From a virus: DNA of 39,244 nucleotides. Shown piece after piece: positions 1,386-28,551 of this stretch (within the stretch, counting starts at the first letter, position 1; each line of letters begins with the position of its first letter). Under the pieces are notes generated by a model that did not search any database, was not told the DNA's origin, and saw nothing but the letters and a program-made list of their open reading frames with translations. The stretch covers positions 1 to 39,244 of IMG/VR virus record IMGVR_UViG_3300010233_000091; one strand, 5' to 3'. Both the position numbers and the translations under genes were made by a program.

Positions 1386-1582
1386 TCCGACAAATTGATC
1401 CGATTCTCACTTGCGATCTTTGCGGCAAAAGTCATCTCGATGAGATGGCCACGGTCTATTCGTCACGCGGCTTTGCGGAGGTTAAGCCGTCAGAGTTCGT
1501 TGGCAATCTCAGAGTTCTGGCGGAACTCTGTCATGGATGCTGGAATAAGTTGAATGAGTTTTTGGATGGAAGGGTAGTATGA
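1382..1582 (+). CDS. Small two-CxxC zinc-ribbon protein
   Basis: 66 residues with CDLC at 11-14 and CHGC at 50-53, a spacing that fits a single four-cysteine zinc site. The ATG at 1382 overlaps the previous stop as ATGA, which argues for this start; an in-frame GTG nine bases upstream is an alternative. The last four bases overlap the start of the ATPase gene. Function is unknown. The small acidic fold and position suggest a nucleic-acid- or protein-binding accessory factor, which is inference. Confidence 0.7.
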   Translation: MIRQIDPILTCDLCGKSHLDEMATVYSSRGFAEVKPSEFVGNLRVLAELCHGCWNKLNEFLDGRVV

Positions 1583-3321
1583 CCCCACAACTCAAAATCA
1601 GTGACTCGATCTCTCTGCCGGCTAACGCTGTGACCCAGACTTTCGCCTGCATTGGGCGAAAGGGAGCTGGTAAGACCTACCTTGCGTCCATGCTCGCGGA
1701 ACAGATGCTGGATATTGGAGCGCAGGTTGTTGTTCTGGACCCTGTCGGAAATTGGTTCGGTTTGCGTGTTGCCGCCGATGGAAAATCAAAGGGTAAGGAT
1801 ATTTTTATCGCCGGTGGTGAACGTGGCGATGTTCCTGTTCTTCCTGAATCGGGCGCGCGGTTTGCCCGCTTGGTCGTCGAGCGTAGCGTATCGATGGTTC
1901 TGGATGTGTCTGGTTTCCGGCAGGGAGAGCGCAAGCGGTTTGCTGCGGATTTTGCTGAGGAGTTTTTCCATCTCAAGAAAACTCAGCGTAGCGCTGTTCA
2001 TCTCTTTGTTGAGGAAGCGCAGTTGTTTGTTCCGCAGCGTTGCGGACCTGAAGAAGCCCGTATGCTTGGGGCGTTTGAGAACATCATTCGCCTCGGCAGA
2101 AATTACGGTGTCGGCGCCACACTTATTTCCCAACGACCGCAATCGGTGAACAAAGAGGTTCTTTCCCAGGTCGAGTGTCTTTGTGTTCTGCAGGTCAATG
2201 GCAGCCATGAGCGCAAGGCTTTGGAAGAGTGGGTGCAGGAAGCCGGCGCTGATCGGAAGTTGGTTGGTGAGTTGCCGGGCTTGTCGCAGGGCCAGGGATA
2301 CGTGTGGAGTCCATCGTGGCTCCGGGTCTTCAAGAAGGTAACATTTTCAAAGAAGACTACGTTCGACGCCAGTGCGACTCCCGAAGTCGGTAAGGCAACC
2401 AAGGCCGCTTTACTCACTGCGGTTGATGTTGAAGCTCTCAAAGCTGATCTTCAGTCAGTTATCGCTTCGGCGGAAAAAGACGATCCGAAGATTCTGCGCC
2501 GGAAGATCGCGGAGTTGGAGCGGTCTGTAAGCGCGGTGGCCGATTCGAAGAATGCTGAGGAGATTACTCATCTTCGCGATACGTTGGAAGTCCGGCACCA
2601 GGATGTGATCCGCTTGGGCGCAGCACTCGAAGAGGCTCAGTCAGTAAATAAAGTTCTGCAGGGGTACGTGAAGGCTATTCAAAAGATCCTGGTAGTGGCA
2701 GAGGTTATGCATTCTTTAGAGCCGATGGAGGTCCCGAGGTATAAGCCTGCGGTCTCACGGCCTGTTCAGTCTTGGGATGCTGCGCGATCCGGTCCTCTTC
2801 TTAAAGCGGCTACGATCAAAGCTGAGTCTAACGGCCACTCAAATAATCTCCGCGCCGGCGCGCGTCGTATGCTGGCCTGTCTCTGCCAGTGGTTCCCTTC
2901 CGGTCGTACTGAAAGTCAGGTGGCCGCTCAGGTTCAGATGAAGAAGACCGGAGGCACCTGGGCAGCATATAAGTCGGATCTGCGTAATGGGAGTTATATT
3001 GAAATCCGAGGCGACGGTCTCTGGTACGCTACGGACGAGGGCAGGGATTATCTGGGTGCAGACATCCCCGATACTCCTGCCAGTACCGAAGAGGTTGTCG
3101 CTCTTTGGGGCGCGAAGTTGCGCAAAGGCGCACGAGAGATGTTGGATATTCTCGTCCACCACAAGGGACGAGCAGTTTCCAGAGAACAACTCGGCCAGGC
3201 AGTAAATATGGAGCAGAGCGGCGGCACATTTTCCGCTTATTTGTCGGATTTGAAACAGGCTGGATTGATTGTTGTGGACCGGGATGGTGTGCGCGCTAAC
3301 CAGGAGACATTGATGCTATGA
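1579..3321 (+). CDS. HerA/FtsK-like P-loop ATPase with two C-terminal winged-helix repeats
   Basis: 580 residues. The P-loop GRKGAGKT lies at 26-33 and a Walker B strand ending in FVEEAQ lies near residues 141-147. It is followed by an IIRLGRNYGVGATLISQRPQ segment (residues ~170-190), the sensor/arginine-rich region typical of HerA/DUF87-type DNA-pumping ATPases. A charged, probably coiled-coil stretch spans about 295-375. The C-terminus holds two similar ~65-residue units, near 424-490 and 514-575, each starting LR(A/K)GAR and containing a SGGT(F/W)xAYxSDL core, which read as tandem winged-helix DNA-binding domains. HerA-family ATPases use ATP to move on or remodel DNA. In a phage this one may act in DNA translocation or recombination, but it is clearly separate from the terminase at 12913. 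ATGA overlaps on both sides suggest translational coupling. Confidence 0.85.
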   Translation: MTPQLKISDSISLPANAVTQTFACIGRKGAGKTYLASMLAEQMLDIGAQVVVLDPVGNWFGLRVAADGKSKGKDIFIAGGERGDVPVLPESGARFARLVVERSVSMVLDVSGFRQGERKRFAADFAEEFFHLKKTQRSAVHLFVEEAQLFVPQRCGPEEARMLGAFENIIRLGRNYGVGATLISQRPQSVNKEVLSQVECLCVLQVNGSHERKALEEWVQEAGADRKLVGELPGLSQGQGYVWSPSWLRVFKKVTFSKKTTFDASATPEVGKATKAALLTAVDVEALKADLQSVIASAEKDDPKILRRKIAELERSVSAVADSKNAEEITHLRDTLEVRHQDVIRLGAALEEAQSVNKVLQGYVKAIQKILVVAEVMHSLEPMEVPRYKPAVSRPVQSWDAARSGPLLKAATIKAESNGHSNNLRAGARRMLACLCQWFPSGRTESQVAAQVQMKKTGGTWAAYKSDLRNGSYIEIRGDGLWYATDEGRDYLGADIPDTPASTEEVVALWGAKLRKGAREMLDILVHHKGRAVSREQLGQAVNMEQSGGTFSAYLSDLKQAGLIVVDRDGVRANQETLML

Positions 3322-9396: not shown

Positions 9397-9716
9397 GCCC
9401 CGATCTCCACAACGGACGCATGAAGCGCTTGCAGTCCAAGGTCGAGAAGCTCTCCCTTCAACCGGGCGATTTGCTGATCGTGCGCGACGCCGGCGACATG
9501 TCAGTCTTCCTTGAGATGACAAATCAGGGAATTGGCTTCACCCCATACGCCAACCCGGTCCTGCTGATCCAGGGAGGGCTGGAGAAGGCGACACGACAGG
9601 ATTTGATCGAAGCCCTGTCTGTGATCGACCAGGCAGCGGCCCAGCGCGTTCAGGAATCTGAGTCACGAATCATCACCGATCTGAATGCACCAATTTTGAA
9701 GAGGGTAATCCAATGA
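9393..9716 (+). CDS. Hypothetical protein
   Basis: 107 residues from a GTG whose bases overlap the previous TGA. It has a basic N-terminal helix, a central LQPGDLLIVRDAGD segment and a C-terminal amphipathic helix. No family recognised. It overlaps the chimeric terminase-nuclease gene by four bases. Confidence 0.6.
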   Translation: MSPDLHNGRMKRLQSKVEKLSLQPGDLLIVRDAGDMSVFLEMTNQGIGFTPYANPVLLIQGGLEKATRQDLIEALSVIDQAAAQRVQESESRIITDLNAPILKRVIQ

Positions 9717-10969
9717 CCAACAGCATTCTCAATCCGTTCGTCCCTTGCCACGCTTTGATCTTCCTCGACGACCAGCATCGCATCAGCACCTATTGTATGC
9801 GCGAGCGCGGCCATGCCGACGAGGCCGTGAAGGGATTCCCCGGCGGGCACAACACTATCAACATGGCGCCCGGAATATGCGCTGCGCTGAAGGAGGAAGC
9901 TCATGGCCACGATAATCCCGCGTTCAACATTGAAGAGATGCAGTTTGCGGAGAATTCCGTTGTTACGGACCCTTGGCGCGGGCATTGCGATCTGACTCCA
10001 GATAACGAGCATGGTCAACTGCGCAAATCGATAGATGGGCCTCTCTACCTGTACGAAACTCCGCAGCCCAAGCACCATTACTTCATTGGCGTAGATTCTG
10101 CCCGATGTGAGGAGTTCACGCTGGCGCCGGCCGATTACGCCGCCCTGGGTTGCATCAATGCAGAGACCGGCCATGTGGCGGCCATCTACGCTGCCAGAGT
10201 ATCGCCTGAAGAGTTGTCAAGCATCGCGGCGGCTCTCGGCTTCTACTTCAACTCAGCGATGCTCAACGTCGAGCTGAACAACATTGGATACATCACGATG
10301 CGTGAGCTGCGCGATCATATCCACTATCCCAACCAATATATTTGGAAGGGCCGCGACGACAAAGCATCGGCTTCGGAATCAGGAACCGCTTACGGTTTCG
10401 AAACGAGCGATCGATATAGGCGTATGATGTTCAATCTCTATCGCACCGCGCTTCATCGCCAGGAAGTTGTTCCGAAGGACAAAGCTTTGGTTTCGCAAAT
10501 GAAGAAAGCGAAGATGGAGCTGGGCTGGAGATGGAACGTAGCGGTCGGTCATGATGGTATTTTGATGAGCATCCTACTCGCGTACATTGCGAAAGAACAA
10601 TATCATCCTACTTCATGTCAACCTAAAATCTCTAAGAATGTGCTGATGGCCAAGGAGGAGTTAGAGAATGCTGGTTTCGATCCCGCCCGTGGGCACATCA
10701 TCGCCAATGGAACGCCAGAGGTGCCCCGCAGTTCTGAAAACAGAGAAGGATCGATAATGTCAGATGGGTCTAAGTTTGTTGGTGAAACATGCTGGCCTGT
10801 TGACCCTGCTTACTCTGAGCATGGCGGACACACCATGTTGCTTTGTGAGGATGGACAAGTGCTGCAAATCGTCCATCCCCCTGCTGCTCAGATCGAATAT
10901 GTGAATGTGATCGATCCGATTGTCAGGGAACTTGTGAAGAGCAAGATTCAACTTGAGAAAGGTAAATAG
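9713..10969 (+). CDS. Chimeric protein carrying a second copy of the terminase nuclease domain
   Basis: 418 residues. Residues ~68-329 align end to end with the C-terminal nuclease domain of the large terminase encoded at 12913, at roughly two-thirds identity by eye. The Walker-type ATPase half of the terminase is absent. Two of the acidic nuclease positions are kept (D128 in GVDSAR, E187 in LNVELNN), while the HDD of the terminase reads HDG here (281-282) and GVDSARG has become GVDSARC. The first 67 residues and the last ~90 do not resemble the terminase. An internal ATG at 10757 with AGAAGGA upstream could independently start the last 70 residues, so the fragment may have joined two formerly separate small genes. 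It could be an inactive or regulatory nuclease, or a decaying duplicate. The long intact frame argues for selection. Confidence 0.8.
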   Translation: MTNSILNPFVPCHALIFLDDQHRISTYCMRERGHADEAVKGFPGGHNTINMAPGICAALKEEAHGHDNPAFNIEEMQFAENSVVTDPWRGHCDLTPDNEHGQLRKSIDGPLYLYETPQPKHHYFIGVDSARCEEFTLAPADYAALGCINAETGHVAAIYAARVSPEELSSIAAALGFYFNSAMLNVELNNIGYITMRELRDHIHYPNQYIWKGRDDKASASESGTAYGFETSDRYRRMMFNLYRTALHRQEVVPKDKALVSQMKKAKMELGWRWNVAVGHDGILMSILLAYIAKEQYHPTSCQPKISKNVLMAKEELENAGFDPARGHIIANGTPEVPRSSENREGSIMSDGSKFVGETCWPVDPAYSEHGGHTMLLCEDGQVLQIVHPPAAQIEYVNVIDPIVRELVKSKIQLEKGK

Positions 10970-10971
10970 AT

Positions 10972-11325
10972 ATGGCCAGGCCGCTTAGCCCCATCCACCG
11001 TCCGCTCGATCCGGTGATTGCCGACCTCATCGATTCGGATGAGAACTATCTTGCGCGTGGCCCATCCGGTTCTCAACGTCCTGACAATCCTCTTCCCAAT
11101 TCTCAAGTCTCGCGTATTGCCAGGCTCGCCCAGCTCGATTCCCGTCTCCTTGCAGGCACCTCTCGGTCCCTCGGCCCTGGCGGCGCATCCGCGGCATATT
11201 CAAATGCGGTGCAGAAAGCTCTTGTGGATGAGATGGCCGATCAGTTGCGTGGCGGGACCGGCGAGGCGCGGAGCGAGATCGGCCACTGGGCTGCAGAGAT
11301 TATTGAAGCGTTTAGGGAGGAGTAG
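10972..11325 (+). CDS. Hypothetical protein
   Basis: 117 residues, starting two bases after the chimeric gene. A proline-rich N-terminus is followed by helices (an SRIARLAQLDSRLL segment and a C-terminal EIGHWAAEIIEAF helix). No motif recognised. Confidence 0.6.
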   Translation: MARPLSPIHRPLDPVIADLIDSDENYLARGPSGSQRPDNPLPNSQVSRIARLAQLDSRLLAGTSRSLGPGGASAAYSNAVQKALVDEMADQLRGGTGEARSEIGHWAAEIIEAFREE

Positions 11326-12172: not shown

Positions 12173-12886
12173 ATGACCCCGCCCAAAGGATACTACAAAG
12201 ACTTAGTCGGCATGGAGTTCAACGCCTGGACCGTGCTTTCTTTTTGTGAACACATCAAAGGTACGACGGTGTGGCTATGTAAGTGCAAATGTGGGGAAGA
12301 GCGCCGCGTCAAAAGTAGTAACCTGCACAACGGAGCTAGCAAACATTGCGGTTGCATGAAGAAGCGCAAAGGATGGATCAAGGGGTATGTTGGTTATATT
12401 CCGTTGACCAAAGGCATGGTGGCCGCCGTTAGCATTCACAGAATAGAAGATTTGCAGCGGTGGAATTGGTATGTGGTGAAGAAAGATGGCAATTACTACG
12501 CATACCGGAACGGCGTTAAAAGCCAGGGGGAGAGCAAAAGAAAAGTGTCTATGGCTCGATACATTCTTGGCATGGACCCGAGTAATAAACACGAGGGGGA
12601 CCACCGGAACCGCCGTACACTCGATAATCGGGATCGCAATCTTCGTCCAGCCACGCACAATCAGAGTCAAGCGAACAAAGGGGTGCGGCGTGACAGTTAC
12701 ACGGGATTCAAAGGCATACGTCGTTGTAAGGCGAAAGGTTCTTTTGTAGGTCGGTTTCAAGTGCGGCTAACGCACATGAGGGTTTGTATGTATTTAGGGA
12801 CGTACGACACAATAGAGGAAGCGGTGAAAATTCGCGATGAAGCGGCTCTAAAATTACACGGAGAGTTTGCCACAACCGGCGAGTAA
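12173..12886 (+). CDS. HNH homing endonuclease with AP2 domain
   Basis: 237 residues. The N-terminal part (DLVGMEFNAWTVLS, CKCKCGEE, then HCGCM) is a zinc-containing element often found on phage HNH/AP2 proteins. A central HNH core follows, with EGDHRNRRTLDNRDRNLR near residue 143 giving H-N-R and a downstream asparagine/histidine (ATHNQSQANK). The C-terminal ~65 residues (TGFKGIRR, YLGTYDTIEEAVKIRDEAA, LHGEFA) match the AP2 DNA-binding domain. Such enzymes cut specific DNA sites and spread their own gene. It sits directly before the large terminase, a common target of phage homing endonucleases, and is more AT-rich than its neighbours, suggesting separate origin. It is translated from its own hairpin-masked site. 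Confidence 0.9.
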   Translation: MTPPKGYYKDLVGMEFNAWTVLSFCEHIKGTTVWLCKCKCGEERRVKSSNLHNGASKHCGCMKKRKGWIKGYVGYIPLTKGMVAAVSIHRIEDLQRWNWYVVKKDGNYYAYRNGVKSQGESKRKVSMARYILGMDPSNKHEGDHRNRRTLDNRDRNLRPATHNQSQANKGVRRDSYTGFKGIRRCKAKGSFVGRFQVRLTHMRVCMYLGTYDTIEEAVKIRDEAALKLHGEFATTGE

Positions 12887-12912: not shown

Positions 12913-14712
12913 TTGGACCATGTCGAGAAGTTCTTCCACCGTCTGAACATTAGAGATAGGGATGAAGGAACCTTTGTCCCTTTTACCCTTCGGCCTCAGC
13001 AGCAAGAAGTATTTCAGATGGCCAAGGATCATCTTGCGCGGCGTCGCAGGCTATTTATTATTTTTCTGAAAGCTAGGCGCCTCGGAATTTCTACGATTGC
13101 GACGGGGATCGGTCAAGCTCATTGTATCGCACATCCTGGATCGATGGCTCGTTGCATTGCGCAGAACGCTAAAGTAGCCTCCGCTAATTTTGAAATGGCG
13201 AGCAGCTTCTTCAAAGATTGCCGTGAGCTATACCCAGGCGCAACGAAGCCCACTAAGTCCATCCTAACTTGGCCTCATTCCGACGGCCCCGATTCAACAT
13301 TCGAGCATCACACAGCGGCTACAGTTCACGGTCAGCGCGGACTAACTTCTTCGTTCCTTCATATGACCGAAGCGGCGTTTTATCCATACGAAAATGTCTT
13401 CACGAGTTTGATGAACACTTTAAGTATGGATAAAAATAATATTTGCTTGGTGGAAACGACCGCCAACGGGGTTGAAGGCCCCGGCGAAGCGTACTACCAG
13501 TATTGGGAAGGGGCTATGTCGGGGGAGAACGAGTTCCTTCCTATATTTCTACCATGGTGGGATGATCCCGCATACGTTCTTCCTGAAGAGTTAGCAATGG
13601 ATGCGCCAAGGGATCAGTATGAAAAGTTTTTGATGAAAGGCATCAAACATTGGAAGACAGGAAAAAAAGTCCGTCTCGGTAAGGATCGCATCGCCTGGTT
13701 CCGCGAAACCTTGGCAACCAAGTGCGAAAACGTGCTCGAAAAATGGCGCGCAGAAATGCCGTCTACTCCAGAAGAAGCTTTCGTCGCCACCGGCAACCCC
13801 GCTTTCACTATCGAAGAGATCCAGTTTGCAGAGAATGCCGTGGTGAAGATACCCCCGTTCCGCGGGCGATGCGTTCTCTCAAGCGATCTCAAGCACGGCG
13901 AGCTGCAAAAAGGAACAGATGGCCCGTTGGTGGTGTACGAGACGCCACAAAAACACGCTCACTATTTCGCGGGGGTTGACTCGGCGCGAGGCGAGGAAAA
14001 CACGATGGCGCCGGGCGATTACGCTGCCATCGTGATGTGGAATGCCGAGACAGGAGACCTGGCGGCGAGGTACATGTCTCGCGTAAGCCCAGAGGAGCTT
14101 GCGCCCGTGGCGGCGGCGCTGGGCTACTACTTCAACGGAGCGATGCTCAACGTTGAGCTGAACAACATCGGCTACGTAACCATGCGTGAGCTTCGCGATC
14201 GGCTCTATTATCCGAACCAATATATTTGGAAGGGGCGCGACGATAAAATCATTTCAGGAAAGCAAGGCACAGCTTACGGATTTGAGACTTCTGATCGCTA
14301 CCGGAAGATGATGTTCTCAATGTTCCGCAACTCTCTCTACCGCAAAGAAGTCGTTCCGAAGGATCGTATCTTCGTCGACCAGATGAAAAAGGCGAAGATG
14401 GAAATGGCATGGCGATGGAACGTTGCTGTGGGCCACGATGATGTCCTGATGGCAGGATTTCTTGGATGGATTGCGAAGGAACAAAATCATCAATTTGCTT
14501 GCCAGCATCGTGCGTCCAAGAACGTAATGATGACAAAGGAAGAGTTAGAGAACGCAGGATTTGACAATACCCGCGGTCAGATGCCGCAGTGGATGAAAGA
14601 CCCCCTAGTTACGGGAGCCGGGATGCTGCTCACTAGCGGTAACGACCATCTGCGCAAGTTGGAGATTTATGCCAAAAATAAACAAAAGCAGAATCGTCTC
14701 GAATGGATCTGA
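12913..14712 (+). CDS. terL: Terminase large subunit
   Basis: 599 residues from TTG 12913. It is the ATP-driven motor and nuclease that packages DNA through the portal into the prohead. The adenine-binding/P-loop region reads LKARRLGIST (52-61), the usual variant of this group. A Walker B-like strand ends in MTEA near 151-154, and a coupling motif ETTANG lies near 181-186. The C-terminal RNase H-like nuclease has D356 (GVDSARGEE), E415 (LNVELNN) and D509/D510 (GHDDVLMA). The start is doubtful: TTG 12913 has no ribosome site, whereas AGGAG at 12889-12893 is ideally spaced for an ATC at 12901 in the same frame (ATC CCG CTT CAA TTG). The native start may have been displaced by insertion of the HNH gene. 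Confidence 0.92.
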   Translation: MDHVEKFFHRLNIRDRDEGTFVPFTLRPQQQEVFQMAKDHLARRRRLFIIFLKARRLGISTIATGIGQAHCIAHPGSMARCIAQNAKVASANFEMASSFFKDCRELYPGATKPTKSILTWPHSDGPDSTFEHHTAATVHGQRGLTSSFLHMTEAAFYPYENVFTSLMNTLSMDKNNICLVETTANGVEGPGEAYYQYWEGAMSGENEFLPIFLPWWDDPAYVLPEELAMDAPRDQYEKFLMKGIKHWKTGKKVRLGKDRIAWFRETLATKCENVLEKWRAEMPSTPEEAFVATGNPAFTIEEIQFAENAVVKIPPFRGRCVLSSDLKHGELQKGTDGPLVVYETPQKHAHYFAGVDSARGEENTMAPGDYAAIVMWNAETGDLAARYMSRVSPEELAPVAAALGYYFNGAMLNVELNNIGYVTMRELRDRLYYPNQYIWKGRDDKIISGKQGTAYGFETSDRYRKMMFSMFRNSLYRKEVVPKDRIFVDQMKKAKMEMAWRWNVAVGHDDVLMAGFLGWIAKEQNHQFACQHRASKNVMMTKEELENAGFDNTRGQMPQWMKDPLVTGAGMLLTSGNDHLRKLEIYAKNKQKQNRLEWI

Positions 14713-27888: not shown

Positions 27889-28002
27889 ATCAACAACTTA
27901 CGGAAAATACTTAAAGTAAATTGTAGGGGGAAAAAGTTGCTAGTTCAGACCACAATCCGGGTTACAATGGGAGCAGGCTCAACACACTTAGGAGGTGTGC
28001 CG
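27889..28002 (+). promoter_or_regulatory. AT-rich leader of the second HNH gene
   Basis: A gap of 114 bases whose first 50 are markedly AT-rich compared with the flanks, including ATACTTAAAGTAAAT; a TACAAT at 27964 could be a -10 element but no well-spaced -35 is seen. A perfect TTAGGAGG lies just before the ATG of the HNH gene. The composition suggests foreign origin with the gene. Confidence 0.4.
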
Positions 28003-28551
28003 ATGTACCTGCTTGAACAGGAAACCCGCCCCCGCGTCGATGATATTCGATTTATCCCCCTCACACATGGATTATTTGCGAGAGTTTGGGCTCGGCATTA
28101 CGACTGGCTTATGCGATGGAAGTGGTGCGCTCAATGGAACCCCCACACGCGCAGTTTTTACGCTACTAGAAAGGCTTCGGTAGAGGAGCGGAAAAACCGT
28201 TCTACTATAACCATGTCCCGGATGATTCTTGGACTGGAACACGGAGATAAACGCCAAGCCGAACATAAAAGTCACGACACACTGGATAATACCGACGGTC
28301 CCGACGGTAATCTTAGAATCGCCACGGTCAGTCAAAATCAAGGAAATCGTAAAAGGCCTAGTACCAACACCACAGGGCTCAAAGGTGCGAGTGAATGCTG
28401 GCGGCGTGGAAGATTTCTTGGGTATATGGCTCAAATCATATTCCAGGGCCAGTGGATGTACCTTGGTCTTCACCCGACGAAGGAACTTGCGCATGAAGCC
28501 TACTGCGCAAAGGCGCGGGAGCTTCACGGTGAGTTTGCGAGGGCCGGCTAA
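28003..28551 (+). CDS. HNH homing endonuclease with AP2 domain (second copy type)
   Basis: 182 residues from the ATG after AGGAGG; a TTG-initiated extension upstream is not needed. IPLTHGLFARV and DWLMRWKW form the NUMOD-like start. The HNH core has the pattern AEHKSHDTLDNT, then DGNLRIATVSQNQGNR (residues ~86-118). The C-terminal AP2 domain has LKGASECWRRGRFLGYMAQI, MYLGLHPTKELAHEAY and LHGEFA at the end. It shares architecture with the endonuclease at 12173 but lacks that protein's N-terminal zinc element and is clearly divergent. It lies directly before a virion gene, whose ATG follows its stop without a gap. Confidence 0.88.
   Translation: MYLLEQETRPRVDDIRFIPLTHGLFARVWARHYDWLMRWKWCAQWNPHTRSFYATRKASVEERKNRSTITMSRMILGLEHGDKRQAEHKSHDTLDNTDGPDGNLRIATVSQNQGNRKRPSTNTTGLKGASECWRRGRFLGYMAQIIFQGQWMYLGLHPTKELAHEAYCAKARELHGEFARAG

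Follow-up and report, generated by a model that had tools for sequence, protein, structure and literature searches.

A viral contig of 39,244 bases (IMG/VR record IMGVR_UViG_3300010233_000091; the window denotes its full length) contains a single open frame of 418 amino acids at 9713–10969, the central part of which resembles the nuclease half of the large terminase encoded further downstream in the same genome. A terminase nuclease standing apart from a motor raises the questions of where it came from, whether it can still cut DNA, and whether the phage makes use of the frame in which it now lies. A sequence-only reading of this locus had described the frame as a chimera carrying a paralogue or duplicate of the resident nuclease, and had entertained a competent free-standing nuclease and, as another possibility, a duplication driven by a homing endonuclease. 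These proposals are weighed here against alignments, phylogenies, codon models, structure prediction, and comparison with related viral contigs.

Architecture of the chimeric reading frame

Residues 68–329 of the frame aligned with residues 295–557 of the terminase at 12913–14712 with 178 identities in 263 positions (68%, E 7e-128), and the two nucleases were 69% identical over 807 bp at the DNA level, a match that is far beyond chance and agrees with the two-thirds identity judged by eye in the sequence-only reading. The rest of the anatomy given in that reading was also recovered: no match to the terminase motor (codons 1–294) was found anywhere in the frame, both end segments lacked terminase similarity, and the internal ATG at 10757, described as having a ribosome site, is preceded by AGAAGG and lies in frame with the chimera (Table 1). 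GC3 was 81% in the N-terminal piece, 60% in the nuclease, and 46% in the orphan ORF. The left edge of terminase similarity falls between about 9875 and 9913, the fragment starts at about terminase codons 288–295, and the left junction contains small compensating indels. Terminase similarity in a shifted frame upstream of 9894 seemed plausible by eye and was rejected, the ungapped match being no better than shuffles. A scan for promoters and terminators gave no clear excess over shuffles.

Table 1 Features of the chimeric frame and its neighbourhood, in window coordinates
Feature	Coordinates	Strand	Remarks
Small Cys/His protein gene, own stop codon lost	9713..9874	+	Residues 1–53; C12, C28, H34, H46
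Left junction	9875..9913	+	Residues 55–67; only EEA...NPAF is terminase-like (alignment with terminases)
Displaced terminase nuclease module	9914..10699	+	Residues 68–329 = terminase codons 295–557; L003-type lineage
Catalytic Asp D128	10094..10096	+	Kept; aligned with T4 gp17 D401; Asp of GVDSAR
Catalytic Glu E187	10271..10273	+	Kept; aligned with T4 gp17 E458; Glu of VELNN
G282, codon GGT	10556..10558	+	Second Asp of HDD lost; aligned with T4 gp17 D542
Right junction	10700..10756	+	Terminase C-terminal tail absent; weak similarity reaches about 10725 only
Orphan 70-aa ORF	10757..10966	+	Residues 349–418; own ATG and AGAAGG site, in frame with the chimera
Next gene	10972..11325	+	Homologue directly after the small gene in L003, L013, L014, L024, L095
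HNH-AP2 endonuclease gene	12173..12886	+	Directly upstream of the intact terminase; PHROG 99 E 4e-27, AP2 E 2e-4
Intact large terminase	12913..14712	+	Motor and nuclease, HDD kept; PHROG 2 E 6e-22, T4 gp17 profile match

The N-terminal piece is 58–74% identical to stand-alone genes of 52–77 amino acids in ten relatives (L003, L012, L013, L014, L024, L031, L049, L056, L064, and L095), where the genes share the same upstream neighbour and have no nuclease behind them. Across the alignment of this small Cys/His family, Cys12, Cys28, His34, and His46 do not vary, and the piece carries all four in the family's fixed neighbourhood; the earlier suggestion that formerly separate pieces had been joined thus holds, since in relatives the N-terminal piece is a small gene of its own. 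In five of these relatives the small gene is followed directly by the homologue of the next gene (Table 1), an arrangement that marks the empty insertion site, and in L012, L049, and L064 a different small ORF occupies the slot. In L049 the occupant is a separate ORF of 160 amino acids, and the small Cys/His gene itself (L049:1864-2097) has its C-terminal unit, VKGFPGGHN..N.APVAE, duplicated in tandem and in frame. The orphan ORF had no relatives in viral contigs, related records, or phage records, so that the separate search of the three segments suggested in the sequence-only reading yielded relatives of the N-terminal and nuclease segments and none of the C-terminal 70 amino acids.

Elsewhere in the window, a second HNH endonuclease ORF (27937-28551) adjoins head genes and is 34% identical to the HNH ORF upstream of the terminase. 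The ORF at 1579-3321, a candidate third terminase half by the name of its PHROG 2666 match (terminase large subunit), was rejected on its Pfam assignment to DUF87/HerA and is read as a HerA-like ATPase; it bears the Walker A motif GRKGAGKT.

Fold and active site of the displaced nuclease

The predicted model of the copy matched the nucleases of G20c, RB49, and T4 gp17 (Foldseek E 1e-9 for G20c and 7e-9 for T4 gp17), with the nuclease fold confidently predicted over most of residues 70–210. Numbering was checked on T4 gp17, where ATLDCSEG contains D401, YIELNSTG contains E458, and the second Asp of GYHDDLVM is D542, and a profile alignment paired these residues with the GVDSARG, NVELNNIG, and GHDD motifs of the present terminase family. 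In T4 gp17 they constitute the catalytic triad (PMC3012670). The catalytic Asp and Glu are kept in the copy and GHDD has become GHDG, as the sequence-only reading had it; the first Asp of HDD is retained, and Gly at the second position occurs only in the copy, both Asp being present in 33 of the 33 aligned terminases. Several other family-invariant residues are changed as well (G132C, G140A, K250Q, and W291Y). Measured against the features of a functional TerL, the frame has the RNase H-fold nuclease and is without the Walker motor and the complete triad. Because the equivalent of T4 D542 is lost, the displaced nuclease most likely does not cut DNA, and the competent nuclease envisaged earlier fits the alignment poorly.

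Origin of the nuclease module

The nearest relatives of the copy were the nuclease halves of full-length terminases from other uncultured phages, with identities of 87% to L003, 85% to L004-L006, and 80% to L007, versus 68% to the phage's own terminase. In the maximum-likelihood tree of nuclease domains the copy was sister to L003 (bootstrap 96), inside a clade that unites L003, L004, and L005 (support 100), and the resident terminase lay far away. The identities of 85–87% to terminases of other phages and the bootstrap of 96 count in favour of a foreign module: the nuclease comes from a foreign terminase lineage, and its description as a paralogue or duplicate of the resident terminase does not survive the tree. 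The protein branch of the copy was 0.137 long versus 0.020 for L003, and the two are far apart at synonymous sites; two further scans recovered no donor closer than L003, and the true donor is accordingly taken to be unsampled.

No second or free-standing nuclease copy was found in the 27 records searched whole, each of which has one terminase, nor was a free-standing copy present in about 50 related contigs, where, as far as the contig reaches, the motor precedes the nuclease and the two are either contiguous or split by an in-frame intein. To date the free-standing module is confined to this genome, as judged from these 27 records and about 50 contigs, which also contained no orthologue of the same architecture; the long-known separate nuclease family that the sequence-only reading had offered as an alternative thus has no member among them. 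The lack of a second copy elsewhere and the empty site in relatives count in favour of an insertion. Phage records gave only matches below 60% identity, those listed being at 22–24% and to terminases, and the patterns applied to the set of bacterial and archaeal genomes found no prophage with the present terminase nuclease.

Probable exchange of terminase modules, and inteins, in related phages

The motor and nuclease trees of the relatives showed well-supported conflicts: L056 combines an L003-type motor with another nuclease, the motor of L020 groups with those of L021, L022, and L026 and its nuclease with that of L018, and L036 and L012 also change partners between the trees. In most of the triplets analysed, which were hand-picked and not a genome-wide set, the estimated breakpoints lay near terminase codons 282–317, with breakpoints elsewhere in L036, L010, and one L012 triplet. 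This suggests that motor and nuclease halves are traded separately in the present phage group, mostly around the domain boundary, which is about where the displaced fragment starts. L003:5474-7076 and L013:4699-5997 share an identical small gene and similarly scoring neighbours but have terminases of different lineages, which looks like an exchange of the terminase between close relatives.

An intein of ~360 amino acids lies directly after the catalytic motif HDDVL(M) of the nuclease in L014:7119-9998 and also in L024, L030, L032, L033, and L036. A second intein site of this terminase family, in L078:4039-6915, lies where motor and nuclease meet (AEYPA|C...HN|TPSEAF), and the intein there matches LAGLIDADG_3 strongly. 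A reading of these terminase insertions as introns was rejected, their frames being open and LAGLIDADG and intein-splicing domains being present, some weakly. In a survey of mycobacteriophage TerL inteins, all were in the ATPase domain (PMC5050341). The breakpoints near codons 282–317, the start of the displaced fragment, and the L078 intein at the boundary together support a normally exchanged module that is here misplaced. The HNH-AP2 gene upstream of the terminase, traced also in L003:6984-7076, L013, L026-L028, and L035, is complete in some relatives, whereas others retain just a C-terminal remnant, which suggests that a homing endonuclease was gained and decayed at this position in the present phage group.

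Selection on the displaced copy

In a codon model of seven sequences, omega (dN/dS) on the branch of the copy was 0.05 (roughly 0.025–0.09) versus 0.03 for the rest, and equality of the two was retained (p=0.17). Neutrality over the whole branch was rejected (LRT 58.8), which excludes a long neutral history of the copy, and when the model was given a neutral phase at the tip, that phase could occupy at most about 4% of the branch. Terminase-like constraint on the copy has therefore lasted until recently, or continues; selection after displacement is not established by the low omega, as most of the branch may predate that event. Of the 17 private changes of the copy, 5 lay in columns that are otherwise invariant, versus 17 of 203 in the other sequences (Fisher p=0.017; p=0.06 when the column threshold was relaxed). 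These data are best accounted for by a recent displacement together with loosened constraint on the nuclease, the evidence for loosening being modest.

Explanations for the locus

The explanation that we favour and consider probable is that an exchangeable nuclease module was recently inserted at the wrong place, where it is probably dead for cutting and carried as a passenger. With the terminase nuclease half behaving in the present phage group as an exchangeable module, an ancestor would have received an L003-type module, probably from a co-infecting relative, by illegitimate recombination into the small Cys/His gene at its 3' end, a site lying about 3 kb upstream from the terminase, and the resident nuclease would not have been replaced. 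The Cys/His gene has lost its stop codon and now reads through the module and the small ORF as a single frame, and the module has lost a catalytic Asp, other family-invariant residues, and presumably its activity. The module is most likely a recent passenger, with the Cys/His domain, the original gene, still serving its own role and the intact resident terminase performing packaging and cutting. The uniqueness of HDG among the aligned terminases and the private changes in invariant columns count for a dead passenger, and the rejection of a long neutral history, together with the short neutral tip phase, fits a recent event. Against a passenger, the frame is intact across three pieces, a coincidence that we put at roughly 2% for unselected junctions, and the lack of a difference between omega and its background makes continued selection possible. 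A recent event has against it the small compensating indels of the left junction, which hint at some age, and an L003-type donor has against it that no donor was found and that the copy and L003 are distant at synonymous sites.

Alternatively, the dead nuclease may have been domesticated as a regulator that dampens or times cutting by attaching to DNA, to the resident terminase, or to the portal, the Cys/His segment being a further binding part. The intact 418 codons, the confident fold, the two of three catalytic residues kept, and the low omega suit this idea, and the loss of a metal ligand from a retained fold is the expected look of a non-cutting decoy; however, the copy is present in one genome only, conservation after the fusion cannot be demonstrated, several further invariant residues are altered, and the tail is an orphan, and we regard domestication as rather unlikely. 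The more specific proposal that headful cutting, whether by the resident terminase or by that of a competing phage, is regulated or blocked by the Cys/His fusion is somewhat less likely again. A free-standing nuclease still competing with or supplementing terminase cutting could point to its retained D128, E187, and first Asp of HDD, but the residue that it has lost belongs to the T4 triad and both Asp are invariant in all aligned relatives, which makes continued cutting very improbable.

Other explanations concern how the fragment arrived. We think it improbable that metagenome assembly wrongly joined a fragment of another phage's terminase into the contig: there is a single contig and such samples often contain several related phages, but two junctions within one open frame are not expected of such an error, HDG and the other private residues occur in no known donor, and by eye the junctions have no long shared stretch to explain a k-mer join. 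A break made by an HNH or intein endonuclease and repaired with a foreign terminase fragment at the wrong site, or the release of such a fragment by the endonuclease, has a slimmer chance still. This part of the sequence-only reading gains from the HNH-AP2 gene upstream of the terminase here and in many relatives, from the LAGLIDADG inteins of relatives at the catalytic site and, in L078, near the left edge of the fragment, and from reports of phage nuclease genes at boundaries of genetic exchange, including upstream of the terminase (PMC10448857); it is weakened by the lack of any endonuclease gene or remnant at 9713-10969, with no HNH, GIY-YIG, or LAGLIDADG among Pfam and PHROGs hits, and by an insertion site that differs from the location of the endonuclease. 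Duplication of the resident nuclease half in situ would account for two copies about 3 kb apart in one genome, yet because the tree places the copy, with strong support, in the lineage to which it is 87% identical, and not in that of the resident, it too is highly improbable and could be reconciled with the tree only by later replacement of the resident terminase.

Comparison with known systems and implications

The copy shares with the TerL nucleases of T4 gp17, RB49 gp17, G20c, and P74-26 the predicted RNase H fold and two of three catalytic acids, and differs from them in lacking a motor and the third catalytic Asp and in its fusion to unrelated N- and C-terminal pieces. The L003-type terminases, which are 85–87% identical to it over the whole nuclease module, are unlike it in joining motor and nuclease in one full-length protein, in having HDD, and in lying where the terminase is normally encoded (IMG/VR). 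Pham3880 of cluster C1 mycobacteriophages comprises conserved, intein-bearing, terminase-like proteins that keep part of the ATPase domain (PMC5050341); by description only, these and the copy are alike in being terminase-like without a P-loop, whereas the copy is a singleton with no part of an ATPase domain. The internal-start products of T4 gene 17 (NC_000866 annotation) are likewise C-terminal terminase products with a truncated motor, but arise from the same gene by internal initiation and have an intact nuclease.

The copy shows the nuclease half of a terminase apart from its motor. Should the fusion prove to be in use, the packaging nuclease would have a natural decoy that does not cut; otherwise the locus would be a case of illegitimate recombination producing a chimeric reading frame.
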